Shown piece by piece: positions 10 through 57,574 of a stretch of 64,000 nucleotides of DNA. The stretch is taken from the IMG/VR virus record IMGVR_UViG_3300042691_037929, positions 1 to 64,000 of that record, one strand, 5' to 3'. The first letter of the stretch is position 1; every line of letters starts with the position of its first letter. A program made the translations under genes and the position numbers. Source of the DNA: a virus. The notes under the pieces were generated by a model. It saw only the letters and a program-made list of their open reading frames with translations, made no database searches and was not told where the DNA came from.

Positions 10-732
10 TTAAAAAATTGTTTTTTTATTGCTTCCGTCACTATAATATATAATAACTAAACCTTTATAATCACTAGTAACTTCTTGACCTAATATGTTT
101 GTTATTAATGTAATTTCTTTTTTGACATCTGTATTATCTATTGATATTGGACCATATTCAGTTTTATATCCATCATAATCAACTTGAACTATTTTATAAT
201 AATTAATAGTTTTACTAAAATCAACATGTCTAACATTGTATTCTGAAATTTCTGATGAATTTCCCTGACCTGGTAGATAAACCATATCAATAAAAGTTTC
301 ACCATCATTACTATAAAATAATACAAAATGTGATGAATTATTTTCTGAAGCAGTTGACCAAGCTATAATATTTTCACCATCAATATCGTTTACAGTAAAA
401 TGAATTAATTCAACTGGTAAAACAACTGAACAAACTACAGAAGTATTACATTGACCTCCTGCATACCAACAAGCTCCATTTGGCATAGTATTAATTAAAC
501 AACTTCCTTGTCCAGGATATATTTGACATGGTTGAACAGTATTTCCACAAGTTGGATTACAAGCATTATTTCCACATTGACCATATGATTGAGCACAACT
601 ATTTATTGAACCACCACAATTTGAAAATAATATACATCTCAAAACTCCAGAACAATCTCTATAAACACATGCACATTGAGAAAATAAATTATAATTTATA
701 AACAATAATAATAACAATAAAAACTTATTCAT
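10..732 (-). CDS. Secreted Cys-rich protein with T9SS-type C-terminal sorting domain
   Basis: A 240-residue protein if started at the ATG 730-732, which lies just after the deformylase stop; an upstream ATG at 750 would overlap that gene. The N-terminus MNKFLLLLLLFINYNLFSQ is a textbook Bacteroidota signal peptide ending in FSQ. About 85 residues with 14 cysteines follow. Then comes a segment starting LPVELIHF and running through WSTASENNSSHF and SNDG, typical of linkers in Bacteroidota secreted proteins. The last 35 residues (NILGQEV, KGLVIIYYSDGS, KKTIF) resemble the type A C-terminal domain that targets proteins to the T9SS for surface attachment or release. Known for the family: cargo crosses the inner membrane by Sec, then the outer membrane by T9SS. 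Inferred: it decorates the infected cell surface or is released. The ligand and role are unknown. It is the last gene of the leftward operon. Confidence 0.8.
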   Translation of the reverse strand: MNKFLLLLLLFINYNLFSQCACVYRDCSGVLRCILFSNCGGSINSCAQSYGQCGNNACNPTCGNTVQPCQIYPGQGSCLINTMPNGACWYAGGQCNTSVVCSVVLPVELIHFTVNDIDGENIIAWSTASENNSSHFVLFYSNDGETFIDMVYLPGQGNSSEISEYNVRHVDFSKTINYYKIVQVDYDGYKTEYGPISIDNTDVKKEITLITNILGQEVTSDYKGLVIIYYSDGSNKKTIF

Positions 733-736
733 TTTT

Positions 737-1315
737 TTAAATATTATCATTTTTTACAAATGTCATTTCGATAATTTTACTTTCAATAAAATTATTTGCA
801 ACAATTACATTTTCACCTTTTTCTTTTCTGTTTAGATATTGATTATATAAATATTTATCTTTCTCTTCAAGTCTATCAATAAATAAAATGCCATTCAAGT
901 GGTCATATTCATGCTGAAAAACAACAGATTGAAATCCTGAAAGTTCCTCTTCTACTTCTTCAAAATTTTCGTTAAAATATTTTACTTTTAAAAAAGAGCT
1001 TCTTTGAGTCATAAAAGAAACATTTGGTATACTAAGACAACCGTCTGGTATTGAAACCTTTAATTCTGAATACTCAATAATTTCTGGATTTACAAAAACT
1101 AAAATATTATCTCTGATATCATTTTTATAATCTCTTGTAACAAATATTTGTAATGATTCATTTATTTGTGGAGCTGCAAGTCCAGCACCATTTGGTATTG
1201 ATAATAATGTATCTTTTAGATTTTGTATAATTTCTTTTGTTTTTTCGTTATTCTCTGCTGGTTTAGATTTTTCTCTTAAAACATCTGTTCCAATTTTTAC
1301 TATTTCTTTAATCAT
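737..1315 (-). CDS. def: Peptide deformylase
   Basis: A 192-residue peptide deformylase, a metalloenzyme that removes the formyl group from the N-terminal methionine of new proteins. All three family motifs are present: GAGLAAPQ (residues 43-50), DGCLSIP (91-97, with Asp in place of the commoner Glu) and HEYDH (135-139). Metal ligands would be C93, H135 and H139, with E136 as catalyst and Q50 in the active site. Length is close to bacterial enzymes, so it looks full and active. Its start overlaps the end of the upstream unknown gene by 8 nt, and it is followed within 4 nt by the secreted protein gene, so it is the fourth gene of a leftward operon. Deformylases are known in other large phages, notably marine ones, where they are thought to support rapid synthesis of phage or host proteins. 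Confidence 0.95.
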   Translation of the reverse strand: MIKEIVKIGTDVLREKSKPAENNEKTKEIIQNLKDTLLSIPNGAGLAAPQINESLQIFVTRDYKNDIRDNILVFVNPEIIEYSELKVSIPDGCLSIPNVSFMTQRSSFLKVKYFNENFEEVEEELSGFQSVVFQHEYDHLNGILFIDRLEEKDKYLYNQYLNRKEKGENVIVANNFIESKIIEMTFVKNDNI

Positions 1316-1586
1316 TTTTATATAATTTTCTAAATTCCTCTGTTACTTTTTTATAATTTATTTCAGTTCTTAAATTTCTAAGTTCAATTTTATTTTTACA
1401 TTTATTTAACTTATGAACAATTATTGTTCTATATCTTTCTGTAAATGTTTTATTTTTATTTAATTCATTAAAAATATTAATTTTTAAATTGTAAAAAGAC
1501 ATTTTTTCAAATGCATCAATAAAAGATTCTTCTCTTTTGATTTTTTTTATTTTTTCAATTATTACAATTCTTTCCAGTATATCCAT
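1308..1586 (-). CDS. Hypothetical small basic protein
   Basis: A 92-residue Lys-rich, probably all-helical protein with no recognised motif. The start ATG shares one base with the stop of the upstream gene (TAATG arrangement) and its end overlaps the deformylase start by 8 nt, so it is translationally coupled in the leftward operon. No cysteines typical of metal sites and no membrane segment are seen. The tight packing supports a real gene. Function unknown. Confidence 0.65.
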   Translation of the reverse strand: MDILERIVIIEKIKKIKREESFIDAFEKMSFYNLKINIFNELNKNKTFTERYRTIIVHKLNKCKNKIELRNLRTEINYKKVTEEFRKLYKND

Positions 1587-1909
1587 TATTCTTTTTTAAT
1601 CATTTTTATTAATTGTTCAAAGCCTTCTATTTTATTATGAATAACAAACTCTAAACAAGTATAAATATTATTATCATGATTTCTTGGCCCCCACACAATA
1701 CCTTTAACTTCATTTATATTAAGAGTATCAACATATCCCATAGGACATCTTTGTTCTAGAGGAGTCCATACTTTTGAATAACCAATAGGAAGCATTCTAT
1801 CATAAAATTTAATATCTTCAAATTCTTCTTCCTTTCTAGAGTCTTCATGGCCATAATGACTTAACCATTCTGATTCTATTTTGGCTAGTTTAAAAATTTT
1901 TTCTATCAT
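1586..1909 (-). CDS. Hypothetical protein
   Basis: A 107-residue acidic soluble protein. It overlaps the upstream DnaB-like gene by 20 nt and the downstream gene by 1 nt, as expected inside an operon. It has an alternating helix/strand appearance, with two Cys (in RCPMGY and YTCLEF) and a WGPRNHDN segment, but I recognise no family. Probably early expressed, from the shared promoter at 2447-2477. Confidence 0.65.
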   Translation of the reverse strand: MIEKIFKLAKIESEWLSHYGHEDSRKEEEFEDIKFYDRMLPIGYSKVWTPLEQRCPMGYVDTLNINEVKGIVWGPRNHDNNIYTCLEFVIHNKIEGFEQLIKMIKKE

Positions 1910-2441
1910 ATATTTCTATTTGTTTGTTTTTTTTAAAATGTATATGTAAGTTAGGTATATAAATAAAATTTTTCTCAAACTTAATTTGATGGTTCATAAT
2001 TTGTTTATAAACAAAAATATTAATATTATATTTTGAGGATAAAAGTTTTAAATCTGTTAATATTATTTTTTGTTCTTGAAAAATGCTTATATTTTTTGGA
2101 AGTTGTTTATTATCTTTTTTTTCTAATAAAATTTTTCTATTATGATTATAATCTTTAGAGCTTTCTAAATGTTCATAACTTTCTATGAACACATAATTTG
2201 GTTTATGATTAATTATAAGTTGTTCTATTTGTTCTATTGTTTTATAAGGATATAATGTTACCTTATCTATTTCTTTGTGATTATAAGAATTGTTGAAATT
2301 AGATGTAAACAATAAAACCTTTTCTTTTTTGTTTGCTAAATAAATATATGTTTCTTCAAAATTTAAAGAATAATAATCTGATGATACAGTAAAAAGTCCT
2401 GATTTAAAATTATTTATATTTATTTCTGTTAAAAAATTCAT
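1890..2441 (-). CDS. Degenerate DnaB/RecA-fold protein lacking a P-loop
   Basis: A 183-residue protein, first gene of the leftward operon. The order of segments follows the RecA-like core of DnaB-type helicases: strand GLFTVSS, a helix, strand KEKVLLFTSN, then NYVFIESYEHLES in the place of the Walker B strand, then ILTDLKLLSSKYNINIFVYKQ in the place of the helix and strand that carry the sensor Gln (LxxLAxxxxxxxxxxSQ), and a final KQIEIYDRKNF. Where GxxxxGKT should stand there is SSDYYSLNFEE, so ATP binding of the usual kind is not expected. This is structural analogy made by eye; it may instead be a diverged KaiC-like protein. The ATG lies only 5 nt past a host-type -7 box. Confidence 0.4.
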   Translation of the reverse strand: MNFLTEININNFKSGLFTVSSDYYSLNFEETYIYLANKKEKVLLFTSNFNNSYNHKEIDKVTLYPYKTIEQIEQLIINHKPNYVFIESYEHLESSKDYNHNRKILLEKKDNKQLPKNISIFQEQKIILTDLKLLSSKYNINIFVYKQIMNHQIKFEKNFIYIPNLHIHFKKNKQIEIYDRKNF

Positions 2442-2446
2442 TTATA

Positions 2447-2477
2447 CAAATTTAAGCAAATACATTGTTTTTTCAAA
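2447..2477 (-). promoter_or_regulatory. Host-type promoter for the leftward operon
   Basis: On the minus strand TTTG (2477-2474), a 19-nt spacer and TAAATTTG (2454-2447) match the Bacteroidota vegetative promoter TTTG-N19/20-TAnnTTTG exactly. The ATG of the first gene begins 5 nt after the -7 box, so the mRNA would be leaderless or nearly so. Confidence 0.65.
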
Positions 2478-4689: not shown

Positions 4690-5469
4690 TTATATAACGT
4701 CAATTTTAAAACCAACACTCTTTAAAATTGCAGACTCTTTTTTGCTATAAAAATATTTGCCTTTTTTTAATTGACCATATTCATATAGTTTTTCATATTC
4801 ATTTTGCGTACAATTTTCTAAAACTTTCATATATTTCTTCTCTATTCTAAAAATACCCATCCCAGCCATCTTCTTTAATTGATTATAGCCAGTCATTTTT
4901 GTTTTATTAAACATTTCACCAATACTTTGACAACACAAATAAGATTCAAAGTTTATCCTTTCACTCGCAATTGACCTTTCTAGCCTTGTTTTTAAAACAT
5001 CATTGTTAGCTAGTTTTTTGACTTGGTCTCTTTTCCGCATAAGCGAGTTGGACTTTCCTTTGATAGTATATTTTTGTTTATTGATGTTGTTTATTAAAAC
5101 TTTAGAATATAATCTAGTTTTAATAACTTGTACACTTTCTGAATTATGAAAATATATAGAACCACATTTTTTGTTATGATTTATTCCATATATCTCTGAA
5201 ATTTTTTCTATTGAAGAAAAAGTTATGTTTTTACCACCATCTTTATTTTTAATTATTTTAACAATTCCCATATCATTCATTTTATCTAAATGAAATTTGA
5301 TTGAACTGGGAGATGTTCCTATAAGTTTTGCAGCTTTTCTTACTGAAAAATTATAAATGGTAGAATTTGTATATAGATATTTTAATTTAATAAAGTAAGA
5401 AAATGTTAGAATCTCTTCTTTTTCAATAATTTTTTTAATTAAACTATGAGTGATTCTTACTTTTTTCAA
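4690..5469 (-). CDS. Winged helix-turn-helix DNA-binding protein, reversed within the tail block
   Basis: Lys-rich protein of 259 residues if started at the TTG 5467-5469. The frame stays open to a TTG at 5508, but that codon lies inside the putative promoter. The segment FSVRKAAKLIGTSPSSIKFH then LDKMNDMGIVKI is a helix-turn-helix with recognition helix and wing, as in winged-helix regulators. A second segment (SIGEMFNKTKMTGYNQLKKM then AGMGIFRI) has the same pattern, so there may be two winged helices, as in plasmid replication initiators. A basic stretch joins them. Role unknown: regulator, or initiator-like protein of a former mobile element. It is the only leftward gene between the gp14- and gp15-like genes, consistent with a later insertion. 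Confidence 0.6.
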   Translation of the reverse strand: MKKVRITHSLIKKIIEKEEILTFSYFIKLKYLYTNSTIYNFSVRKAAKLIGTSPSSIKFHLDKMNDMGIVKIIKNKDGGKNITFSSIEKISEIYGINHNKKCGSIYFHNSESVQVIKTRLYSKVLINNINKQKYTIKGKSNSLMRKRDQVKKLANNDVLKTRLERSIASERINFESYLCCQSIGEMFNKTKMTGYNQLKKMAGMGIFRIEKKYMKVLENCTQNEYEKLYEYGQLKKGKYFYSKKESAILKSVGFKIDVI

Positions 5470-5484
5470 ATTGAAAATTTTTTG

Positions 5485-5516
5485 CGAATATATGATTAAT
5501 AAAATCAAAAATCAAA
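5485..5516 (-). promoter_or_regulatory. Possible host-type promoter for the winged-helix gene
   Basis: On the minus strand TTTG (5516-5513), exactly 20 nt, then TATATTCG (5492-5485), one mismatch from TAnnTTTG. It supports the TTG start at 5469, 15 nt downstream. Confidence 0.4.
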
Positions 5517-10163: not shown

Positions 10164-10718
10164 GTGTCTGGACAGTATTTTTATAAGATAAATGATAATT
10201 TTTTACCAATTAGCGGTGGCACCGTTACTGGTGATAGCTACTTTAATGCTAGTTTATCTGCTAATACTTTTTACTCTGGTTCTACAAATCTTGAAGATAT
10301 ATTTTTAACTAGCACAGATATTTCTGGAACAACATTAACTGAAGGTAGTAACATTAATTTAGTACAAAATGGATTAAATTATAAAGTTTCAGTTCAAGAT
10401 TCTCCCAGCTTTAATAATGTAAGTTTTTCAGGCGAAGCTTTTGGAGGAAATATATATGCAGATACAATAACTGGTGAAACTTATTATGTAAACAATAAAA
10501 TAGAACCATTAAATGATAATTCGGTTGACATTGGAAGTTCTTCTAAAAGATTTAGAAATATAAACACTGTCAGTGGAGCATCAACATTTTGGACTGCATC
10601 AACTGAGGTTTATACACAAAATTTAAATCTTGGAAATGATTTACTTGGCAATTCAAGAATTATTACAGCAAATAATTCAGTTATTCAAGATGACACATTG
10701 TTTGGAGGAACATATTAA
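10164..10718 (+). CDS. Short tail fibre protein with shared fibre module
   Basis: A 184-residue protein starting with GTG. It contains ISGGTVTGDSYF, a common phage fibre segment, and SANTFYSGSTNLEDIF, a version of the module repeated in the following fibre genes. A later EPLNDNSVDIGSSSKRFRNI is the standard fibre motif of the type NxxxDIGSxxxRFxxI that precedes chaperone domains or shafts. The protein ends in FGGTY, as does the next fibre (DGGTY). Inferred: a short trimeric fibre or fibre-base protein. No intramolecular chaperone is seen. Confidence 0.7.
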   Translation: MSGQYFYKINDNFLPISGGTVTGDSYFNASLSANTFYSGSTNLEDIFLTSTDISGTTLTEGSNINLVQNGLNYKVSVQDSPSFNNVSFSGEAFGGNIYADTITGETYYVNNKIEPLNDNSVDIGSSSKRFRNINTVSGASTFWTASTEVYTQNLNLGNDLLGNSRIITANNSVIQDDTLFGGTY

Positions 10719-10740
10719 ATTCAAATAAAAAAAAAATATA

Positions 10741-10748
10741 TATTTATT
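10741..10748 (+). promoter_or_regulatory. Candidate late promoter motif TATTTATT
   Basis: TATTTATTAATAG, 35 nt before the 553-residue fibre gene. Confidence 0.5.
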
Positions 10749-10783
10749 AATAGTGATAAAAAATAAAAAATAAACAATAAAAA

Positions 10784-12445
10784 ATGGCAACTAGAAGCAC
10801 TACTCATGTATTAAAGAACTCGGATATAGTAAATAGACCGTTACCATCAGTCCTTATAAAAGGTGAACCTATTGTAAATACTGCAGATGGTATTGTTTTT
10901 TTCTCTGGTTTTACAACTTCAACATCTGAATGGACTGCAGCAGGAACTGGTTCTACAGCAAACTTTTTTGAAGTAGGTTCAAATCTTTATGATTTAAGAT
11001 TAAGAAATCAAATAATCGAATATCAAGGTCAAAATGGTGGAGCATTAGTTGGTAAGTTCTTAAGTGGTACAACAAGTGGATTTGTTTTAGGTAATATTTC
11101 GGAAATACAAGGAGTTACAACAAGAGTTCAGCCTGGAGTAAATATATATACTGGAGGAACTGCTGATAACCCAACAGTTAATCTTACAGCATCTCCTTCA
11201 ATTGATAACCTTACTTTTTCAGGTACTGCAACTGGTGGAAATGTTTTTGCAACAAACGTAAGTGGTGGAACTATTTATTCTGGTTCAACAAACTTATATG
11301 ATATATTTGTTGACTCTGTAAATGCTGGTTCAAACACTACAATAGGAGGAACGGCTTCTAATCCAATAGTAAATTTAGTTGCATCACCTTCATTTAATAA
11401 TATCACTTATTCAGGAGTTTCAACTGGTGGAAGTTCAATAGCGACAAATGTATCTGCAACAACAGCATTTTACTCAGCAGGAACGTCTCTTGAGACTATA
11501 ATATATAACATTGCCAATTCTACAGAAAGTATTACAAGTGTACAGCCTGGAACAAATATAACAACTGGAGGTACTGCTACAAATCCAATTATAAATCTTA
11601 CAGCATCACCTTCAGTTAACAATCTTACTTTTTCAGGTACTGCAACTGGTGGTAATATTTTTGCAACAAACGTAAGTGGTGGAACTATTTATTCTGGTTC
11701 AACAAACTTATATGACATATTTGTTGACTCTGTAAATGCTGGTTCAAATATTACAATAGGAGGAACGGCTTCTAATCCAATAGTTAACGTTTCTTCTTCG
11801 CCTACATTCTCTGGACTTGTATCTGCTACAGGATTTACAGATTCAAGTTTAACTCAAGGAAGAGTTGTTTATGTTGGAACAAGTGGTAGACTTGTTGATG
11901 AATCTGGATTTGAATACAATGATTCAACAAACTTATTAACAGTTGGAAATATAAATGTAACAAATGCTTCTGGAACAACTGCAACAATTGGACAAGGAGG
12001 TTTAGTTATTGGTAGTGGAGGCTCAATATCAACTCCAGGAATAGGAAATTTAGTTGTTCATGGTGATTTAACTGTTTTCGGTACGGCTACTACAGTTGCT
12101 ACAAGTGAGCTTTACGTTGAAGACCCTCAAATTACATTAAATTATAATCCTACAGGTAGTAGCATTGTAACATCAGTAGCTTCTGGTATAAGAATTCAAG
12201 ATGGTAGTGGATTGGTTGCATCTTCAGCAGTAACAAACACTGACGTTTATTTGACTGTTGCTCAAATGAATACATTCACTGGTGGTGATGCTTCTGAATA
12301 TACTGGTTCTACTGGATATGTAAATAGAGCTTTCTTGACACAGTTAAATGATATAGTTATAAGAAATACTAATTTTAATAATGGTGCCCCAGATGGCGTT
12401 AGAGTTTTAGCTGAGTTTGATGTTTTAGACGGAGGAACTTATTAA
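10784..12445 (+). CDS. Repeat-containing tail fibre protein
   Basis: A 553-residue, Thr/Ser/Gly/Asn-rich protein with no membrane segments. It begins with an attachment-like region (residues 1-55), then carries two nearly identical module copies (SGGTIYSGSTNLYDIF at about 160 and 298), spaced by the connector type GTNITTGGTATNPIINL. Towards the end the segments GNLVVHGDLTVFGTATTV and LYVEDPQITLNYN are typical of T4-like fibre tips and structural fibres. It ends in DGGTY. Role: probable receptor-binding or structural tail fibre. A strong terminator follows. The two DNA copies of the module are 414 bp apart and almost identical, so recombination within the gene is likely. Confidence 0.8.
   Translation: MATRSTTHVLKNSDIVNRPLPSVLIKGEPIVNTADGIVFFSGFTTSTSEWTAAGTGSTANFFEVGSNLYDLRLRNQIIEYQGQNGGALVGKFLSGTTSGFVLGNISEIQGVTTRVQPGVNIYTGGTADNPTVNLTASPSIDNLTFSGTATGGNVFATNVSGGTIYSGSTNLYDIFVDSVNAGSNTTIGGTASNPIVNLVASPSFNNITYSGVSTGGSSIATNVSATTAFYSAGTSLETIIYNIANSTESITSVQPGTNITTGGTATNPIINLTASPSVNNLTFSGTATGGNIFATNVSGGTIYSGSTNLYDIFVDSVNAGSNITIGGTASNPIVNVSSSPTFSGLVSATGFTDSSLTQGRVVYVGTSGRLVDESGFEYNDSTNLLTVGNINVTNASGTTATIGQGGLVIGSGGSISTPGIGNLVVHGDLTVFGTATTVATSELYVEDPQITLNYNPTGSSIVTSVASGIRIQDGSGLVASSAVTNTDVYLTVAQMNTFTGGDASEYTGSTGYVNRAFLTQLNDIVIRNTNFNNGAPDGVRVLAEFDVLDGGTY
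11207..11785 (+). repeat. Internal near-identical 165-bp direct repeat in fibre gene
   Basis: About 165 bp starting near 11207 recurs near 11621 with an offset of 414 bp and only a few substitutions. The two copies encode the same fibre module (TFSGTATGGN, SGGTIYSGSTNLYDIF, VDSVNAGSN, IGGTASNPIVN). Confidence 0.75.
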
Positions 12446-12464
12446 TATATTTAAATTTTATTTT

Positions 12465-12495
12465 AAAAAAAGGACGAAAATACGTCCTTTTTTTT
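12465..12495 (+). terminator. Rho-independent terminator after the 553-residue fibre gene
   Basis: AAAAAAGGACG, short loop, CGTCC then a run of T. Compact stem with A and T flanks; it could work in both directions. Confidence 0.75.
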
Positions 12496-12558
12496 ATTAA
12501 ATCATAAATAATGTTATAAAAAGACTAATAAGATTATTTACATTTTATTATTTTATAA

Positions 12559-12566
12559 TATTTATC
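12559..12566 (+). promoter_or_regulatory. Candidate late promoter motif TATTTATC
   Basis: TATTTATCAAA, 51 nt before the next fibre gene. The 12-bp palindrome GACTATATAGTC follows at 12573-12584, a possible operator. Confidence 0.4.
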
Positions 12567-12617
12567 AAATAGGACTATATAGTCTTTTATATAAACAAAT
12601 TATTATAAGTCATAAAT

Positions 12618-14135
12618 ATGACAAATAGAAATACTACATTCCTAGTAAAAAGGTCAAATGTACCTGGAAAGATACCGTCTCCTGGCGACTTAAAGCTTGG
12701 AGAATTGGCTTTAAATACAGCTGATGCAATATTATATGCATCTGGAACTACTGCAAACGATATTTTACCAATAGGATGGGATAGAATCAATAGAACTGGA
12801 GATACAGTTAATGGTGATTTTGTCTTTAATGGTAGTATAGATGTCAATTCTTTATCTGCATCTACAATCTATTCTGGTTCTACGAACCTTTATGACATAT
12901 TTTTAACTTCTGGAGACTTATCTGGAACATCGGTATCAGCTGGCTCAAATATTATAGTTCAACAATCAGGTAATGACTATAAGGTTTCAGTTTCTGGCTC
13001 ACCAATCTTTAATCAACTTACAACTTCGGGTCTTACAACTATAAATTCAAATTTTATAGTAACAGGAAATACAAATCTTGAGGCAATGTCTGCGTCAACA
13101 GTTTATGTTGAAGACTATATTCAATTTAATACTGGATATACACCAGGTGTTAGTACGGAAGGTAAGATGTATTGGGATGAACCAAATGGAACCATAAGTC
13201 TTGGTATGCATGGCTCTCAAGTATCGCAACAAATTGGTTTAGAATATTATTACTACGTAAAAAATCAAAGTGGAGCAACAATTGAAAATGGTCGTGTTGT
13301 AAGAGCAGCTGGAACGTTGGGGGCTTCTGGTAGAATTTTAGGTAAGTATATGATTGCAAATGGTACTATACCTGCTAAGTATACACTAGGTGTTGCCACT
13401 GAAGACATAATAAATGGAGATGATGGTTATGTAACTGAATTTGGATTAGTTAGAGGGATTGATACAACAGGTACTCCTTATGGTGAAACATGGAGTGAAG
13501 GTGATGTATTGTGGGTGTCTCCGACATTTGAGGGTGGATTAACCAATGTTGAGCCAAATTTCCCTAACTTGAAGATAGAAATGGCTATAGTAATTAGAGC
13601 TAATGCCAATGGTTCTATTTTCGTAAGACCACACAGATACCCGTCTACAAATGAAATTCAGGACATAATTTCTTCAGGTAGAACAAATAATTCCATTCTT
13701 CAGTATAATGCTTCGATTAGTGGATATACAAATACGACAACTCCGACTCTGACTTCAGTTAGCGCAACAACAATATCAGGAGGAACAATATACTCAGGCT
13801 CAACTGATTTATCGGCTATTTTTCAGCCGATAAACAAAAGTCCTTATAATACATTTATTTTAACAGCAGGAACAAGTTATAGTTTTTCGGGCACAGTAAA
13901 TACTTTGTCGATAAATAAAACAGCTGGGTCAGCCACGCAAGTAAATTTACCTTCAAATCCTAATACAAATGACTTCTTTGTAGTTAAAGATAGAGCAGGT
14001 GTTTCATTTACGTATCCGATAACGATGTCAGGAGGAACAAAGACAATTGATGGAAACACATCATATGTTATAAAACTTAGAAATAATCCATCACTCACCT
14101 TCCTATATGACGGTGAAGAATATATAGTAATTTAA
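12618..14135 (+). CDS. Tail fibre protein with widespread phage fibre domain
   Basis: A 505-residue protein. The N-terminal 40 residues (NTTFLVKRSNVPGKIPSPGD, then LKLGELALNTADA) are a fibre attachment motif seen in many phages. Module copies are at about 80 (SASTIYSGSTNLYDIF) and 390 (SGGTIYSGSTDLSAIF). Between them lies a domain common in phage fibres: YYYYVKNQSGATIENGRVVR, then a GVATEDIINGDDGYVTEFG segment, then EGDVLWVSPTFEGGLTN. The last 80 residues form another beta domain. Known for such domains: structural parts of receptor-binding appendages. It is placed between a terminator and a second appendage gene 18 nt downstream. Confidence 0.8.
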   Translation: MTNRNTTFLVKRSNVPGKIPSPGDLKLGELALNTADAILYASGTTANDILPIGWDRINRTGDTVNGDFVFNGSIDVNSLSASTIYSGSTNLYDIFLTSGDLSGTSVSAGSNIIVQQSGNDYKVSVSGSPIFNQLTTSGLTTINSNFIVTGNTNLEAMSASTVYVEDYIQFNTGYTPGVSTEGKMYWDEPNGTISLGMHGSQVSQQIGLEYYYYVKNQSGATIENGRVVRAAGTLGASGRILGKYMIANGTIPAKYTLGVATEDIINGDDGYVTEFGLVRGIDTTGTPYGETWSEGDVLWVSPTFEGGLTNVEPNFPNLKIEMAIVIRANANGSIFVRPHRYPSTNEIQDIISSGRTNNSILQYNASISGYTNTTTPTLTSVSATTISGGTIYSGSTDLSAIFQPINKSPYNTFILTAGTSYSFSGTVNTLSINKTAGSATQVNLPSNPNTNDFFVVKDRAGVSFTYPITMSGGTKTIDGNTSYVIKLRNNPSLTFLYDGEEYIVI

Positions 14136-14153
14136 TTTGAAATATTTATTAAT

Positions 14154-15407
14154 ATGAGCTTTACACTTAATAATGAAATAAGTTTTTCTGACAGTCCAAA
14201 TATAGATGCATTTGGTAGGTTGAGAACTAGTAATCCACAAGCTTTATTTTCATTCAATCAAACGCTTACAAGTGGTGCTACTATTATGGAAACATATACA
14301 AGTGGTGGTACTGTAACTTTTAATTCAGGTGCATCTGAAACCCAATTCAACGTAACTGCAAATGGGCATAGAGTACTAAGGGAACAACATGGTTATAATA
14401 TTTATCAGCCAGGCAAGTCTCAGTTAATATTTTTAACTGGAGTCTTTGGAACGCCGACAGCAAACGTTACAAAGAGAATGGGATATTACAATGACGAAAA
14501 TGGTTTATTCTTTTCTCAAACTGGTGGTACTAACACTTTTGGCGTTGTCTTAAGGTCTGATACAAGCGGTTCGATAGTTGATACATTCATACCACAAAGT
14601 CAATGGAATTTAGACACATTAGATACTGGAAACACTTTAAACCCAAGCGGAATTCATTTGGATGTCACTAAGACAAATATTTTCTTAATAAATTTTCAAT
14701 GGCTAGGAGTTGGTAGAGTTATTTTTGGTTTAGATATAGATGGAGTTATAATTCCTGTACATCAAATTTTAAATGCCAACAATAAAACTTCGGTTTATAT
14801 GAGAACCCCAAATCTACCAGTTAGATATGAAGTAACTTCTCAAGGCGGAACTGATAATACATTTAAGCAAATATGCTCATCTGTTATTTCAGAGGGAGGA
14901 CAAGAACAGTTTGGTTTTACAACAGCAGTTTCTAATGGATTAAATACAAGAACATTTGCTTCTGAACAAGCAGTTATATCTGTTAGGTTGTCTCAACTTT
15001 TTAAAGGTAGAACAAATAGAATTTCAATCATACCATTATCTATTGATTTGTTAACAACTACAACAACTGTAACGGCAGAATGGAAGCTGATATTACAAAG
15101 GGGTTTTGCTGGAGAAAATAATCTAGGTGGCTCTCCAACATGGAATGCTTGGACTGCGACGACTGAAGGAACTCTGTTAGAATATTCAACAAATGGTACA
15201 ATTGTAACTGGAGGAACTGTTTTAGATAGTGGCTATGTATTCACAACAAATCAAGTTGGGTCTAAATCTACCAATTCAATAGTTAGGAGTAAAGATTTCT
15301 TATCATTAGACTTTTCAGGAACAACTTCAGATTGGTTACATTTAGTTGTAAGTCCAAGTGTAAGCTCATCTTGGTCAGGTAAAATTTCATTATTAGCACA
15401 ATATTAA
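14154..15407 (+). CDS. Virion appendage protein, family with DAFGRLR N-terminus
   Basis: A 417-residue protein. DAFGRLRTSNPQALFS near residue 18, HGYNIYQPGKSQLIFLTGVF, KRMGYYNDENGLFFSQ, SQWNLDTLDTG, LINFQWLGVGRVIFGL and MRTPNLPVRYEV mark a protein family that recurs in the structural regions of many large phages and marine viruses. Its function is usually listed only as virion structural protein. Unlike its neighbours it does not carry the SGSTNLY module. The position within the fibre block suggests a fibre or baseplate-periphery component. A TATTTATT at 14143-14150 ends 3 nt before the start and may be chance. Confidence 0.75.
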   Translation: MSFTLNNEISFSDSPNIDAFGRLRTSNPQALFSFNQTLTSGATIMETYTSGGTVTFNSGASETQFNVTANGHRVLREQHGYNIYQPGKSQLIFLTGVFGTPTANVTKRMGYYNDENGLFFSQTGGTNTFGVVLRSDTSGSIVDTFIPQSQWNLDTLDTGNTLNPSGIHLDVTKTNIFLINFQWLGVGRVIFGLDIDGVIIPVHQILNANNKTSVYMRTPNLPVRYEVTSQGGTDNTFKQICSSVISEGGQEQFGFTTAVSNGLNTRTFASEQAVISVRLSQLFKGRTNRISIIPLSIDLLTTTTTVTAEWKLILQRGFAGENNLGGSPTWNAWTATTEGTLLEYSTNGTIVTGGTVLDSGYVFTTNQVGSKSTNSIVRSKDFLSLDFSGTTSDWLHLVVSPSVSSSWSGKISLLAQY

Positions 15408-15416
15408 TAAACAAAA

Positions 15417-18400
15417 ATGGCTTTTAATTATTCATACAATAAACAAGTAGTTCCGAGTGATTTATTTAATTCGGTAGTTGATGGATTGTCAATTACACCA
15501 ATGTATATTGACTATAATGCTCAAACATTTAATATAGATATTTGGTTTGAACAAGCATTAACTGCACCAGAAGAATCTATCTTAAATGATATTGTTGCAA
15601 ATATAATATTTGTAGACAAATCTAATTATGCAACATTTGAAAATGTAACCTCTACAGAGGGTGACATTACTTCGTTAACAGCAAATACTATTGAAAGTAG
15701 TTTTTCGAACATTGGAGATTTAAGTGCGTCCACGATTTATTCGGGCAGCACTAACTTATATGATATTTTCCTAACATCAAGTGATGGAAATGATATAACA
15801 AGAGTTCAGCCAGGGACAAATATAACAACAGGTGGAACTGCAAATAATCCTACAATAAATCTTGTAGATTCTCCATCAGTAAATAATATTGCATTTTCAG
15901 GAACAGCAACAGGAGGTAATATTTTTGCAACTCAATTAAGTGGTGGAACTATTTATTCGGGAAGTACAAATTTATATTCGATATTTGCACCAATTGGTTC
16001 TTCGGAGGGTGTACAAAATGTTTTGCCTGGCTCAAATATAACAACAGGAGGAACGGCTACAAGCCCAACAATAAATCTTTCAGAATCACCATCAGTCAAC
16101 AATCTTACTTTTTCAGGAACAGCAACGGGAGGTAATGCGTTTGCAACTCAATTAAGTGGTGGAACTATTTATTCTGGTTCAACAAATTTATATGATATAT
16201 TTGTTGATTCAGTAAAATCGGGTTCAAACGTTACGATAGGCGGAACAAGTTCTAATCCGATAGTCAACATTACTGCATCACCTTCATTTAATAATTTGAC
16301 ATTATCAGGAACAGCAACAGGCGGTAATGTGTTTGCAACTCAATTAAGTGGTGGAACTATTTATTCAGGAAGCACTGATTTATATAATATTTTTCTAGGA
16401 TTAAATGATGATTATGTTAAAAATGTTGTAAATGTTGGAAAAGGCGGGAATGTAGAATTTTCATCAATAAAAGATGCCGTCGATTCAATTACCGCAGCAA
16501 CAACATCAAATCCATACGTGGTTAAGGTTGGTCCAGGCATGTACATTGAAGATACTATTACAATGAAAACAGGTATCTCGATTGTAGCAAATTCACTTGG
16601 AAGTGTTTTAGTTATACCGACAGTAAATACAAACACTATATTTGTTGGTGCAGATGCGTCATCAATTGTTAACTTAGTTTTGACAAACGCTAGCGGTTCA
16701 GGAGGAAAAGCTGTTTACCATAATGGAACTGGCGGAACTGGGTTTTTAATTAAAGATTGTAATTTTAACGATAATGAAACTCAAGTTCATTGTTATGCCA
16801 CTTCGGCTTCTTCAATAGTCTATATAGATAGGTGTAGTGTAACTGGAAATAACGCTTATGGGTTTAAGATAGAGAATACTGGCACAACTTTATCTCAGGT
16901 GATATTCACTAATGGTACATACAAAGATACAACATTGCCTGTAACAACCGATTTCTTTACAGTATCAGGAACTGGTTCAACATGTACTATTACAAATTCT
17001 ACATTTAGAATTGCTCAATCAACAGGTTCAACATTTTTAAAAGCTCAAGATAGTGCTGACGTTAGAATCATTGGTTCAGTTATTAGAGGTTTTGAGAATG
17101 GATTATATTCTTTATCAGGAAATGGTGCACCAAACATCATTTGTGATTCCTTAGGAATATCAGAATGTACAAATGATATTTTAATAGAGCATCCTGGAAC
17201 GACAGGTTATTTTAATGGTATCTCAGAGTTTTCTAAAATCTCGATAAATAATGACGCTCCATTTTATTTAACAAATAATGATACTAAAATTATTAAAGTC
17301 GCCAAAAAAGGAGAAGACTTTACATCTATTGCAGATGCTGTTAATTTTATTACAGACGCATCAAGTACTAATAGATATTTAATTAGTGTTGGGGCTGGAA
17401 TTTTTTATGAGGATGAAATAGATTTAACAAATAAGCCGTTCATTAGTGTCGTCGGTGCAAGCATTCAATCGACTTTAGTAATTCCAAATACAGGTACTCA
17501 GCACTTGTTTAAGATGGGTAATAATTGTGAGATTTCATTTATGTCACTTAGTGGCGTCGGCAATGGTTATTCAGCTGTATATGTATATGACATTGGAGAT
17601 TTTGCACAAGCTCACAAAATCTCTATTATAGATTGTGATACAAATGTTCACGTAGAGTCTGTAACTCAAGATACAATATTCTATGGGGAATATATGGATT
17701 TTAATGGTAATTATAGTTATGGAGCAAAAGCAGTTGCAAACAATAATTATCAAGCTTTCATTAATTTAGAAAACTACTATATTTTCCCTTCTGGTGACGG
17801 AGTTCAAGTTGGTAACTTTGCGACAGGAAGTGGTGCAACTTTCAATATCCTATCTTCTTCTATGGCAGGAATGGGAAACACAGGAGAAACTGCTATTCAT
17901 ATAGAGGATGGAGCTTCATTAGATTGTACTTCTGTTGATATAGACTCATTCTATTATGGAATTAGAAATGCGAATGTAGGAAGTGATTGCTCATTTGACT
18001 TAGATGCTATTAGTATTACAAATTCTGGTCTTTATGATATTTCTATTGAAAATTCAACAACTACTGGAACTATACTTGGTTCAGCATCACATACTCAAAT
18101 TTTTAACGCTAGTAATTCTGTTTCTTGGCTTATATTAGATAGTACTGATGGAGAGTTAGATATCACCAATCAATTATCTGTAACATTTACAGATGGTACA
18201 CATACAGACTTATCAACAATATTGATAAAGGGTGCTACTATGGGGATTATCGAAGGTGGTGTTATAACAGAAGTGAGTGGATTAACTATTAATATAAGCA
18301 CAGGTTTTGGGTATTTAGAAAAAGCTCCTAATACTAAGATATTGAAAAGAATTGATTGGGACTCTCAGGATTTGGTCTTACCAAGCAATTCTAATCTTTA

Positions 18401-21044
18401 CATTTATTTCAATGAAAACGGAGTTTTATCTACATCTGGTTCTAGACCGAATTCGATAAATAATATAATTTTAGGCAGAGTTGTAACAAATTCATCTATT
18501 GAGATTATTGATTTGTCTCCATTGAATGCAGAACATACTTCAAATAGATATTCTGATTTATTTACAGAAGCTATCGGACCTATATATGCAGATGGTTCTA
18601 TCGTTACAGAAAACACGACGCCTTTCCACCTAGATGCATCATCGGGTAAATATTACTATTCAACAAACGAGTTTAAGCCTACAGGAGGTACTGATATAAC
18701 TTTTGTTCAATATAACAGAACTGGATTAACTGGTTGGACATCTTCAGCAACTACTGTTGTTACGAATTCACTATATGATAATAATGGTTCGCTATCTGCC
18801 TTATCATCATCTTATTATACAAAACACACATTTTATTTGATTGGAGATAGTATTTATGAGCAATATTTATTAGTTTTAGGTCAAAATCAATATGCAACAC
18901 TTCTTGAAACAGAGGATGCGTTATTACCTACTCCACCAACCTATTTTTCAGATTCATTAGTGCAGATTGCGAATATATATGTTCAAGAGGGTGCTACTGG
19001 AATTACGCAAGTTGAAGATATTAGACCTATTATCGGATTTAAAGCGGGAGGCGTAAATGCTTCCTCAACACATGGTAACTTACTTGGTCTATCTGCTGAC
19101 GACCATACTCAATACTTGCTTGTTGATGGTGGTAGAGCTATGTCTGGAAATCTAGATATGGACTCAAACAACATAGTGAATGCAGGTACAATAAATGGTG
19201 TTTCAGCTCAAACACACTCTACAAGACACTTACCTAATGGAGCAGACCCTTTAAATACAGCAGCGCCTATAAGTATTTCAGATTCAAACTCAGAAGGTAT
19301 TGCAAATTCATTTGCTAGGTCAGACCACCAACATGCTCATGGAGTTCATAGTGGCGGAACAACCCACTCAGTTGCAGATTCTACAACGGCAGGATTTATG
19401 TCTTCTACTGACAAGAACTACTTGGATTCATTACCAAGTCAGTTGAATACTAAATCTAGCTTGTCAGGAGCTACATTTACAGGGGCAGTTAATGCAACAT
19501 CACTAAGCGCTACAACACTAAGTGGCGGAACTATACTTTCGGGCTCAACTAATCTTTATTCAATATTTGCGCCTATTGGCACTATTGGGAGTGGTGGTGT
19601 GCAAAGTGTGCGACCAGGCTCGAATATAACGACTGGTGGAACTGCAGAAAGTCCGATAATAAATATTGTAGATTCACCTTCATTTAATGGTTTAAATGCT
19701 TCTGGGAATACAATTTTAAACGCAACAACAGCAATAACTCAATATGTAGAAAGCTATTTAAATATAGGAAATGCGAACCCTGAAACTACAGCAACATTGC
19801 ATGTGACTTCTTTATCTGCTCAAAATCAAACTACTGATTTTGAACAATTCGGGTTTGGTTCTAATTTTAGGATTAGAAGAACGAATGGTAGCCCTTCTTC
19901 TAAGTCAACATTGTTGAGTGGTGACGTAATAGGTAATTTAAATTTTGCTGGTTATGATGGGGTTTCAAATTCAGCCTCTCAGTCACGCATAAGAGTTTTA
20001 ACAACTGAAGATTGGTCTCCTACAAATCGTGGGACAAAAATGGAGTTTTCAGTAACTCCAATTGGTTCTATAGATAATACAACTTGTTTAATTTTAAATT
20101 CTGATTGTAGTGCTGTTTTTTCAGATGGTTTATCTGCTAAGACAATTTCTGCAACAACAATATTTTCAGGCTCAACAAATTTATATTCAATATTTGCTCC
20201 TATTGGTACTATTGGTGGAGGTGGCGTTAAGAGTGTTCGACCAGGTTCAAATATAACAACAGGAGGGACTGCGGAGAACCCAATAATAAATCTTGTAGAT
20301 TCACCTTCGGTTAATAATTTGAATATTTCTGGGCTAACGACTTCAACAGATGGAGCAACATTTGTATCCCTTTCAGGAACAAATATATTTTCAGGAAGTA
20401 CAAATTTAAATGTTTATTTTGATAGCATTAATGCAAGGCTTGAAACAGAGGCTAATTTATCTGGCGCAACATTTACAGGAACAGTTAATGCTCCAACATT
20501 AAGTGCGACTACATTCAGCGCCTCAAGTGCTACAGTTTTAAGTTCATTAAGATTCCCTGTATCACCTGTTTCTGGGTATATTTTAACATCAGATGCAAAT
20601 GGTAATGCAGCTTGGCAGGCAAGTCCTGTTGGAACAGGTGCAACGAAGGTAGATTTACAAGGTGTGTCAACTGGTTCAACCGCAACAGCGACATCGGCAT
20701 TTGTAGACGTTCCAGGCATGACGTTTACAACAAAAAACCTTGGTAGTTCGGCAACAACATATGTAGCAAGATTTAATGCTCAAATAAGTAATAATAACAA
20801 TGCAGGTTCTTCTACATTTGCTATATTAAGAAATAATGTTGTACAACCAAGCTCAGTAAGGACAGTATCAAATTCTGGTGCTGCCATGACCAACTCAAAC
20901 AGAAGTATATCAACATCTGCAACTATTACAGGTGTCACAAATGGTGATGTAATTAAAGTGCAGTTTAGTGCAGCAACTGGTACTGTAACTGTTACAAACA
21001 GAGGTTTTGATATTTTTGGAATTTTAAATGTTAATTTAGTTTAA
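15417..21044 (+). CDS. Giant tail fibre/spike with duplicated beta-helix region
   Basis: An 1875-residue protein, the largest fibre. Residues 1-90 form an attachment-like domain related in pattern to the start of the next gene (21047). Four module copies follow (residues about 100-330), then two homologous right-handed beta-helix blocks, each opening with a pectate-lyase-like start: VGKGGNVEFSSIKDAVDSI near 343 and VAKKGEDFTSIADAVNFI near 626. A phage-fibre segment DHTQYLLVDGGRAMSGNLDM and HSTRHLPNGADPL lie near 1230-1280, followed by three more module copies. The last 140 residues look like a jelly-roll tip (VPGMTFTTKN, ISTSATITGVTNGDVIKVQF). Likely role: adhesin or polysaccharide depolymerase. 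Catalytic residues cannot be assigned by eye. No S74-type chaperone is seen. Confidence 0.85.
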   Translation: MAFNYSYNKQVVPSDLFNSVVDGLSITPMYIDYNAQTFNIDIWFEQALTAPEESILNDIVANIIFVDKSNYATFENVTSTEGDITSLTANTIESSFSNIGDLSASTIYSGSTNLYDIFLTSSDGNDITRVQPGTNITTGGTANNPTINLVDSPSVNNIAFSGTATGGNIFATQLSGGTIYSGSTNLYSIFAPIGSSEGVQNVLPGSNITTGGTATSPTINLSESPSVNNLTFSGTATGGNAFATQLSGGTIYSGSTNLYDIFVDSVKSGSNVTIGGTSSNPIVNITASPSFNNLTLSGTATGGNVFATQLSGGTIYSGSTDLYNIFLGLNDDYVKNVVNVGKGGNVEFSSIKDAVDSITAATTSNPYVVKVGPGMYIEDTITMKTGISIVANSLGSVLVIPTVNTNTIFVGADASSIVNLVLTNASGSGGKAVYHNGTGGTGFLIKDCNFNDNETQVHCYATSASSIVYIDRCSVTGNNAYGFKIENTGTTLSQVIFTNGTYKDTTLPVTTDFFTVSGTGSTCTITNSTFRIAQSTGSTFLKAQDSADVRIIGSVIRGFENGLYSLSGNGAPNIICDSLGISECTNDILIEHPGTTGYFNGISEFSKISINNDAPFYLTNNDTKIIKVAKKGEDFTSIADAVNFITDASSTNRYLISVGAGIFYEDEIDLTNKPFISVVGASIQSTLVIPNTGTQHLFKMGNNCEISFMSLSGVGNGYSAVYVYDIGDFAQAHKISIIDCDTNVHVESVTQDTIFYGEYMDFNGNYSYGAKAVANNNYQAFINLENYYIFPSGDGVQVGNFATGSGATFNILSSSMAGMGNTGETAIHIEDGASLDCTSVDIDSFYYGIRNANVGSDCSFDLDAISITNSGLYDISIENSTTTGTILGSASHTQIFNASNSVSWLILDSTDGELDITNQLSVTFTDGTHTDLSTILIKGATMGIIEGGVITEVSGLTINISTGFGYLEKAPNTKILKRIDWDSQDLVLPSNSNLYIYFNENGVLSTSGSRPNSINNIILGRVVTNSSIEIIDLSPLNAEHTSNRYSDLFTEAIGPIYADGSIVTENTTPFHLDASSGKYYYSTNEFKPTGGTDITFVQYNRTGLTGWTSSATTVVTNSLYDNNGSLSALSSSYYTKHTFYLIGDSIYEQYLLVLGQNQYATLLETEDALLPTPPTYFSDSLVQIANIYVQEGATGITQVEDIRPIIGFKAGGVNASSTHGNLLGLSADDHTQYLLVDGGRAMSGNLDMDSNNIVNAGTINGVSAQTHSTRHLPNGADPLNTAAPISISDSNSEGIANSFARSDHQHAHGVHSGGTTHSVADSTTAGFMSSTDKNYLDSLPSQLNTKSSLSGATFTGAVNATSLSATTLSGGTILSGSTNLYSIFAPIGTIGSGGVQSVRPGSNITTGGTAESPIINIVDSPSFNGLNASGNTILNATTAITQYVESYLNIGNANPETTATLHVTSLSAQNQTTDFEQFGFGSNFRIRRTNGSPSSKSTLLSGDVIGNLNFAGYDGVSNSASQSRIRVLTTEDWSPTNRGTKMEFSVTPIGSIDNTTCLILNSDCSAVFSDGLSAKTISATTIFSGSTNLYSIFAPIGTIGGGGVKSVRPGSNITTGGTAENPIINLVDSPSVNNLNISGLTTSTDGATFVSLSGTNIFSGSTNLNVYFDSINARLETEANLSGATFTGTVNAPTLSATTFSASSATVLSSLRFPVSPVSGYILTSDANGNAAWQASPVGTGATKVDLQGVSTGSTATATSAFVDVPGMTFTTKNLGSSATTYVARFNAQISNNNNAGSSTFAILRNNVVQPSSVRTVSNSGAAMTNSNRSISTSATITGVTNGDVIKVQFSAATGTVTVTNRGFDIFGILNVNLV

Positions 21045-21818: not shown

Positions 21819-22211
21819 ATGTATACGAAAGAAGAACAAAATGCTGTAAATGAAATAAAAACAATATTGGAAAATTATGAAAAATTTCAAGGTAAAGTTT
21901 CATATCTTATAGAAGATAGTGAGAGAAAGATTTTATTTTGTAATAAATCATTTTGCAATATGATAGGATTTGATGGTGAACCTGAAAATCTTATTGGTTA
22001 TAACTGTGAAAAAGCAGCGGAAGACAACAAGAGCTTGTATATAAATTCTGAAAAGTTTGTGGAAGACATAAATGATATTTTTAAAGATAAAACAAAAAAA
22101 CAAACTCACTTAATTGAAATGGTGAACGGTAAAAAATACAAAAGAGATTATGTTCCACTTTTTTTTCAAGATAATTATATAGGACACTCGTGGCAATATT
22201 ATGAAATTTAA
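21819..22211 (+). CDS. Free-standing PAS domain protein
   Basis: A 130-residue protein that is nothing but one PAS domain after a short N-terminal helix. Diagnostic segments: YLIEDSERKILFCNKSFCNM then IGFDGEPENLIGYNCE (the PAS strand A/B and N-x-x-F-x-x-x-x-G core), a helix EKFVEDINDIF, and the final strands NGKKYKRDYVPLFFQDNYIG then HSWQYYEI, close to the PAS ending that reads WxYRDIT in histidine kinases. PAS domains bind small ligands or haem, or mediate protein contact. Here no kinase, cyclase or DNA-binding domain is attached. It sits 1 nt after a fibre-associated gene. Inferred: host-derived sensor or protein-interaction module; role unknown. Confidence 0.75.
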   Translation: MYTKEEQNAVNEIKTILENYEKFQGKVSYLIEDSERKILFCNKSFCNMIGFDGEPENLIGYNCEKAAEDNKSLYINSEKFVEDINDIFKDKTKKQTHLIEMVNGKKYKRDYVPLFFQDNYIGHSWQYYEI

Positions 22212-25905: not shown

Positions 25906-26556
25906 ATGGAGAACCTGTATGAAACATATTATAAAAATAATTTTTATCTTCCTGTTCTAAATTATTTGCCATTAGAAAAAGAAATTTCGAAGATTAGAGA
26001 TTATCAATTAGATTTATTGAGAATTTTTCATAAATATAATAATGTTTCTGTTGTAAAGACAAGACAAATAGGTGCATCAACTATTTTAGCTTACTATATT
26101 TCTTGTTTGATTTTATTAAATGATAGTTGTGAATATAAAAAAATTGTAATATTTACTCCAAACAAAGAGCTTTTTATGAATAAACTTTCTTATTTTTTGA
26201 GAAATAAAGAAGTTGAAGCCGCATATTATAACAAACACCGTTTAATTTATAATAATGTTGAAGTACATATAGTTAATCATATAGACCAACTTAGAGGTAA
26301 TAACCCAGATATTTTTATAGCAGAAGAAATTACAGGTTTAGAAGAGGATAAATGTAACTTAATTCTTAGATGTTCACTATTTTTTAAAAAAAGCATAATT
26401 GTTTCTTCTCTTGGCGGAAAAAGTGATAAAATCTTTAAAAAATGGCATTCAAATATAGTGAGCAAAACAAAAACATTTAAAAAAAGAATAATTTTAGAAA
26501 AAAAGAACAACATACTAAATGATGATTATATGTATTTTAATGCTTCATTTAATTAA
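25906..26556 (+). CDS. Terminase-like ATPase domain protein without nuclease
   Basis: A 216-residue protein that covers only the ATPase half of a large terminase. Seen: adenine-side RDYQLDLLR, P-loop KTRQIGAST (51-59), strand KIVIFTPN, a HIVNHIDQLRGNNPDIFIAEE run in which IFIAEE (136-141) is Walker B, and IIVSSLGGKSDKIFKKWH in the place of the coupling motif. The protein ends where the nuclease should begin, with an ordinary stop. It lies 39 nt after the full TerL. Identity to TerL is low, so it is an old duplication or a separate acquisition rather than recent decay. It may modulate packaging, or be a remnant kept by selection. Confidence 0.75.
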   Translation: MENLYETYYKNNFYLPVLNYLPLEKEISKIRDYQLDLLRIFHKYNNVSVVKTRQIGASTILAYYISCLILLNDSCEYKKIVIFTPNKELFMNKLSYFLRNKEVEAAYYNKHRLIYNNVEVHIVNHIDQLRGNNPDIFIAEEITGLEEDKCNLILRCSLFFKKSIIVSSLGGKSDKIFKKWHSNIVSKTKTFKKRIILEKKNNILNDDYMYFNASFN

Positions 26557-38900: not shown

Positions 38901-39347
38901 TAGAATTTCTTTTTTAATTCTTTCTATAACTGCGTTTCTATCTTTTTTTAGTTCTGATTCCCATACACGAAAGATATTGTAGCCCATTCCTTTTGCTATA
39001 ATATCTTTCCATTTATCGTTTTTTACACTTCTTTTCTGCATTTCATTTAATGTGGTATATTTTTCTGGGTTTGCATGAAAATAATCGCCATCTACTTCAC
39101 AAATAGTCTTTGTTGAGGGAATATAATAATCAAATATTTTTCCTTTTAATATTTTTTGAGATTCATATTCAATATTAAGTTCTTTTAATATTGATTCAAA
39201 TTCTCTTTCTGGCCAAGTTTTATTTTTGTCCATTTTATAGGACTGTGCATTCAAATATTTAATTTTCTTTATTGGATTATTTGTTAAAGATTTTTTTTGT
39301 CTTCTCAGTATACTAGCTACTTTTTTCTTTTTTTCATATTCATTCAT
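38892..39347 (-). CDS. PD-(D/E)XK endonuclease, Vsr/DUF559-like
   Basis: A 151-residue basic protein. TWPEREFESILKELNIEYES, then KIFDYYIPSTKTICEVDGDY, FHANP, then a helix with KNDKWKDIIAKGMGYNIFRV and WE matches Vsr-like and DUF559 nucleases: early Glu, Asp in FDYYIP, ExD in CEVDGD, a His, and a final RVWE. Known family roles: mismatch nicking, or homing endonucleases in T4-like phages. It is a leftward singleton whose end overlaps recD2 by 9 bp, as expected of a mobile free-standing nuclease. A minus-strand TATTTATA at 39352-39359 is only 4 nt from the start. Confidence 0.75.
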   Translation of the reverse strand: MNEYEKKKKVASILRRQKKSLTNNPIKKIKYLNAQSYKMDKNKTWPEREFESILKELNIEYESQKILKGKIFDYYIPSTKTICEVDGDYFHANPEKYTTLNEMQKRSVKNDKWKDIIAKGMGYNIFRVWESELKKDRNAVIERIKKEILSI

Positions 39348-57538: not shown

Positions 57539-57570
57539 TTTGTTTTATTTAACTTTTTGATTTACATTTG
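57539..57570 (+). promoter_or_regulatory. Host-type promoter for the family A polymerase gene
   Basis: TTTG (57539-57542), 20 nt, TACATTTG (57563-57570). Exact consensus. The ATG at 57575 begins 4 nt after the box, so the transcript should be leaderless. Confidence 0.65.
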
Positions 57571-57574
57571 CAAT

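Follow-up and report, generated by a model that had tools for sequence, protein, structure and literature searches.

The window, by which we mean the whole 64,000-base stretch that was analysed (bases 1-64000 of a viral record 69,898 bases long), carries at its left end a leftward gene for a 240-aa protein predicted to combine a signal peptide, a cysteine-rich domain, a fibronectin type III (FN3)-like linker and a short tail of the type IX secretion system (T9SS) type (Table 1). It is the last of a five-gene leftward run and directly follows the gene for peptide deformylase, which the first-pass annotation had named and which matches PF01327. The name "early-type operon" is plausible for these five leftward genes, which are set apart from the structural genes and may be expressed early. 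As for the promoter-like match ahead of the run, the pattern occurs 11 times in the window against 5.5 expected by chance, and promoter scans of the window gave nothing convincing. The family of proteins sharing the linker and the tail has a single copy, this gene, across the 69.9-kb record. An in-frame ATG also lies upstream, at 750, and the start at 732 (MNKFL) is preferred because the signal peptide begins there; the G+C content at the three codon positions (36/37/7%) fits a coding gene of an AT-rich phage.

Table 1. Features of the 240-aa protein gene and of the leftward run to which it belongs (window coordinates).
Feature	Position	Strand	Basis
Gene for the 240-aa secreted protein: signal peptide, Cys-rich domain, FN3-like linker, short T9SS-type C-terminal tail	10..732	-	ORF
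Sec-type signal peptide, residues 1-18, predicted cut between LFS and Q	679..732	-	inspection
Cys-rich cargo, residues 19-104, 14 cysteines	421..678	-	no relative found
FN3-like linker, residues 105-200 (LPVEL...SIDN)	133..420	-	structure prediction, Foldseek, distribution
Short C-terminal tail, residues 201-240, predicted strands 207-211, 225-230, 235-239	13..132	-
Motif B-like NILGQEV, residues 212-218	79..99	-	alignment; G kept in 57/58 tails
Motif D-like GLVIIYY, residues 224-230	43..63	-	alignment; G kept in 57/58 tails
Motif E-like DGSNKKTIF, residues 232-240	13..39	-	K/R kept in 56/58 tails
Peptide deformylase, next gene upstream, same leftward run	737..1315	-	PF01327 E 2e-44
Three more genes of the leftward run (92, 107, 183 aa), no assigned function	1308..2441	-	ORFs
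Bacteroidota-type promoter-like match TTTG-N19-TAAATTTG before the leftward run	2447..2477	-	weak

The stop codon lies 9 bases from the contig start, and a host gene misjoined to phage sequence would fit both this position within 10 bases of the end and the presence of bacterial genes among the closest relatives in architecture. Such an artefact is extremely improbable and is largely refuted by a separately assembled viral contig (L002, IMGVR_UViG_3300005528_002525), possibly from a related sample, which is 100% identical to the phage contig over 8732 bases including the gene. This contig reaches 565 bases past window base 1, through a terminator-like hairpin and on into tRNA-Glu and tRNA-Gln genes on the same strand as the gene; the gene is therefore complete and free of an assembly edge effect. 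Moreover, the linker and tail family is found on more than 200 viral contigs, and the nearest neighbours of the protein in the tree are viral.

By inspection, the signal peptide is MNKFLLLLLLFINYNLFS, cut before Q, and agrees with the ending in FSQ that had been noted from the sequence. Of the 50 non-redundant relatives whose 5' end is closed, 48 begin with a signal-peptide-like stretch; a hydrophobicity score identified 43 of them and inspection by eye the other 5, some of which start with a codon other than ATG. Lipoprotein sorting was considered for the 240-aa protein and rejected, as there is no lipobox and Gln precedes Cys20. The count of 14 cysteines in about 85 residues made at first pass holds for residues 20-104. 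No relative of this Cys-rich domain was found except in the identical contig, and structure prediction gave no confident fold for it.

The linker described at first pass as LPVEL...WSTASENN is present, with LPVEL at residue 105 and WSTASENN following. AlphaFold2 predicts for it a fold of seven strands with pLDDT above 90 over most of its length (six DSSP stretches, one of them long), and the model of linker and tail together has a mean pLDDT of 94 from 55 aligned sequences. Foldseek returned FN3-type matches for the predicted linker and tail structure; its top PDB matches list FN3 domains and no T9SS CTD, and a profile sequence search of the PDB gave chance-level matches only. Immunoglobulin-like and FN3 domains are common on phage structural proteins, and with an FN3-like fold predicted here the protein could be a tail fibre or decoration protein of the virion whose FN3-like domain binds the particle or a carbohydrate. 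This is very unlikely given the cleavable signal peptide of nearly all relatives, the location of the gene in the peptide deformylase run next to tRNA genes and away from the structural genes, and the fact that the linker tracks the T9SS in bacteria. Indeed, in a phylum sample made of the centre genome and an even set of 392 other genomes of Bacteroidota, the linker occurs in 184 of the 392, and PorV was found in 184/185 linker genomes versus 136/208 genomes without the linker (Fisher p 5e-22). PorV was also present in all 12 short-tailed bacterial genomes examined. The linker is thus a hallmark of T9SS cargo in Bacteroidota, as its co-occurrence with PorV shows. None of 31 viral records had PorV, so the phage would depend on the machine of its host.

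The tail consists of the 40 residues past SIDN, and the ILGQEV and KKTIF ending reported earlier is confirmed by NILGQEV and KGLVIIYYSDGSNKKTIF, both of which are present. The consensus of the tails reads [IV][IV]K..N.LGQEV-5-G..I..Y.DG[ST]..K. The spacing between motifs B and D is 5 in the 240-aa protein and in 49 of 58 tails; after the G of motif D the residues are mostly hydrophobic, with I/F/L at the fourth place and Tyr at the third in 7/58 tails only. Motifs A and C are absent, and AlphaFold2 predicts three strands (tail pLDDT about 92-96) and no seven-strand Ig-like sandwich. Between close phage pairs the dN/dS of the tail is about 0.1-0.25, with few substitutions.

Neither TIGR04183 nor PF18962 matched the 240-aa protein at E<=10, nor did any model of Pfam, NCBIfam or PHROGs. 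The same two sorting-domain models gave no match with 48 relatives (E<=1 / 0.1), and the models for T9SS type B (CHU_C / TIGR04131) and type C (NF033708) matched neither the protein nor its relatives. As a control, long-tailed proteins with the same linker matched both TIGR04183 and PF18962 in 16 of 16 cases. The first-pass annotation had proposed a search with these two models as its check, and had held that the lack of both a match and a signal peptide would speak against it; the match is absent and the signal peptide is present, and T9SS targeting is supported by the linker and the short tail, though not by way of the named models. The negative search is probably a failing of the models and not of the T9SS idea, the tail being most likely a short-form CTD that they do not see. 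When long and short CTD profiles are aligned by hhalign, the short tail falls on the C-terminal portion of the type A CTD; the similarity is weak, with P 8e-4 or 0.01 according to the direction of the comparison. With a long-CTD HMM, 36% of short tails scored above the 95th percentile of shuffles, and the tail of the 240-aa protein scored below it.

Relatives with linker and tail were found in 214 confirmed viral stretches (IMG/VR) and in at least 560 bacterial ones. Past the linker, bacterial proteins usually have a further 84-107 residues, in which YPNP and other type A CTD hallmarks are often seen, and viral proteins have 51-59 residues, like the 240-aa protein; the short tail thus occupies exactly the site of the standard type A CTD after the bacterial linker. 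A second viral scan was seeded only with linkers of long-tailed bacterial proteins, which removes the bias of a short-tailed query. Among its hits with closed 3' ends, 74 of 79 had the short tail and 5 the standard CTD; near-copies are common, and the 74 short-tailed proteins represent 55 distinct tails. Since a query made of long-tailed linkers still gives a short-tailed majority, query bias was discarded as the source of the viral excess. The pre-linker regions are similar across tail types, both between a bacterial short-tailed protein and a long-tailed one (L195 versus L154, 45% identity over 319 aa, E 8e-82) and between a viral short-tailed protein and a bacterial long-tailed one (L230 versus L163, 38% over 173 aa, E 9e-28), so that short and long tails look like alternative endings of similar proteins.

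In bacteria, none of the matches listed from the 392 genomes of the phylum sample, where up to 10 candidates were scored in each genome, reaches the end of the short-tail profile. In the order of a Fluviicola MAG (G003), the linker occurs in 156 of 199 genomes and short tails in at least 33 of the 199, as judged from the listed matches that extend to profile position 130 or beyond. G003 itself carries tandem short-tailed genes beside ordinary metabolic genes on the chromosome; these form an array of large short-tailed secreted proteins (contig C58, L277 3247-19876), which might be a bacterial origin of the short tail or a system in which to test it. In a further genome (G008), two short-tailed genes lie beside a gene with, by eye, a type B CTD-like C-terminus. 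Misbinned phage sequence was ruled out at the two bacterial loci that were read, those of G003 and G008, which have ordinary chromosomal neighbours. In the tree, viral and bacterial members interleave, and the 240-aa protein stands beside a viral one with modest support (88/92). A terminase match was found in 18 of 36 viral records tested, this phage included, and many of the records are fragments, so that the rest may still be viral. No cultured phage in the searched collection has the family. Four huge uncultured phages have the linker, with the short tail in LR745206 and LR756502. In one huge phage sequence of 462 kb (LR756500.1, L003), a protein combines the same linker with a signal peptide and a complete C-terminal region of YPNP type; the phage is unannotated, and this protein would be a T9SS cargo of standard appearance. 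The cargo of the short-tailed relatives includes GEVED, CUB, GBD_T9SS_assoc (galactose-binding-like) and MAM-like domains and one thermolysin-like protease; it varies between phages and the tail is kept.

Type A CTDs have been divided into motifs A-E; in P. gingivalis, GFP could be secreted by means of the last 22 residues (motifs D and E), and models place motifs B, D and E in contact with PorV (PMC10202324, PMC4804311). Interchange of CTDs between species does not always work (PMC11285876). The type A sorting domain (TIGR04183 / PF18962) and the phage tail are alike in the C-terminal position, the N-terminal signal peptide, the linker, the B/D/E-like motifs and the genomes with PorV. However, the former has about 70-80 residues, a seven-strand sandwich and YPNP, whereas the latter has 40 residues, three strands and no YPNP. 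Short CTDs of about 40-55 residues with motifs B, D and E only and a B-D spacing of 1-6 were described in P. intermedia, stated to be the sole species in which they had been observed (Ye et al. 2025, PMC11969387). They are predicted to form a single sheet whose three strands correspond to strands 3, 6 and 7 of long CTDs, cleavage and glycosylation were found for several of them, and they were modelled on PorV like long CTDs (PMC11969387). Compared by description, the phage tail resembles them in length, in having only B, D and E, in its three strands, in the spacing and in its basic motif E. The P. intermedia tails are bacterial; the tail described here follows an FN3-like linker and is found in phages as well as in a different order of bacteria. 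Their motif D is usually GxY (or GxN) followed by Ile, while the phage tail lacks a strict GxY and has N.LGQEV as motif B. Finally, several of the bacterial tails are cleaved and glycosylated, and the phage tail is known from its sequence and predicted structure.

These data bear on whether the tail is a signal at all. The protein might be exported by Sec and stay in the periplasm, to be freed by lysis or to act on the envelope, with a tail that is a remnant of a host gene and carries no T9SS signal. The clear signal peptide, the lack of a T9SS model match, the shortness of the tail and its weak likeness to long CTDs would all suit this explanation, which we nevertheless consider unlikely. A remnant would decay, whereas the tail has a low dN/dS, is shared by nearly all of the viral linker proteins in the scan above and keeps its G, G, DG and K almost invariant; moreover, P. 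intermedia does process short CTDs of a comparable kind (PMC11969387).

The 240-aa protein is therefore probably a phage-borne cargo exported by the T9SS of the host. Sec would take it by its signal peptide to the periplasm, where the cysteines would form disulfides; the host translocon and the PorV shuttle would then recognise the 40-residue tail, with motifs B, D and E only in one three-stranded sheet. The proposals of Sec export, disulfides and tail recognition are based on the sequence and its distribution, on the predicted structure and on the experiments published for equivalent short CTDs, and the later steps we infer. The protein would pass the outer membrane, the tail would probably be cut in the flexible junction past SIDN, and the mature protein may then be attached to surface polysaccharide or set free. 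At the cell surface, its compact Cys-rich domain might alter what the infected cell binds; for instance, receptors used by other phages might be masked or blocked, or adhesion changed. Masking or exclusion of other phages, in line with the roles first imagined for the protein (superinfection exclusion, receptor masking or protecting the infected cell), is a tentative idea on the unlikely side. For this last step only, the T9SS cargo could have another role, as an adhesin-like or aggregation factor or as a released factor that alters the contacts which the infected cell, or debris from it, makes with particles, surfaces or neighbours, and this has a fair chance that falls short of even. It would agree with the varied adhesion-type domains borne by relatives with the same tail (together with one protease) and with a cargo that changes from phage to phage behind a constant tail, although the Cys-rich cargo of this phage is unlike those domains and has no relative.

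Phage genes for T9SS-secreted cargo have been reported in Cryophage, where they were called a unique occurrence (Bellas et al. 2020, PMC7468147). That case resembles ours in the genes for cargo of the host T9SS, in a cargo that varies between phages and in superinfection exclusion among the suggested roles; it differs in its ordinary type A domains (endoglucanase, GH39, PA14), against the short unannotated tail and Cys-rich cargo found here. In crAss-BACON cluster 2, too, phage proteins lie close to T9SS sorting domains or are fused with them, but these have BACON repeats and a standard sorting domain, and their function was left open there (PMC6949934). Within the open-licence PubMed Central literature, two points appear to be new: the form most common in phages is a short tail missed by current models, and short CTD-like tails are present beyond P. 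intermedia. We think it slightly more probable than the opposite that a minimal B/D/E T9SS signal is the usual export tag of Bacteroidota phages, which on about 200 uncultivated contigs would direct a range of cargo to the surface of infected cells or beyond it. If so, surface remodelling through the host T9SS would be a common phage strategy and not a single reported case. Since the short tail is invisible to standard annotation, phage use of the host T9SS is probably under-counted. A working tail would be a natural minimal secretion signal, informative on what the T9SS and PorV must recognise, and would offer a handle on phage-driven surface change of infected Bacteroidota cells. The linker plus a C-terminal N.LGQEV...G..I..Y.DG...K can serve as a detection rule for finding more such proteins.

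The rest of the genome is that of a contractile-tailed phage (tail sheath match to phrog_23, E 7.5e-77). Two contigs with the linker and tail family (L017 and L032) also have relatives of its tail sheath or tube, and synteny between this phage and other phages is minimal. A second, short terminase-like ATPase gene lies right after the large terminase gene (window 25906-26556, phrog_2 E 2.5e-7), and ATPase-only matches of about 250 aa were seen in about ten other phage records. Across four fibre-like genes (window 10164-21044) there are some 12 copies of a motif like IYSGSTNLYDIF, which suggests repeated modules swapped among tail-fibre genes. A small PAS-domain protein is encoded amid the structural genes (window 21819-22211; PF13426, E 4.8e-7, over the cut-off), and a 272-aa gene on the opposite strand lies within the head-tail genes (window 4690-5508), with a weak helix-turn-helix match to PF01022 below the cut-off. 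Also on the opposite strand, a DUF559-type endonuclease-like gene (window 38892-39347; PF04480, E 4.4e-9) is possibly a mobile endonuclease. Finally, the phage seems to encode two DNA polymerases, one in a 1327-aa protein that by eye looks like a fusion of exonuclease and DnaE (window 29526-33509) and the other of family A (window 57557-59203; PF00476, E 9.5e-29).
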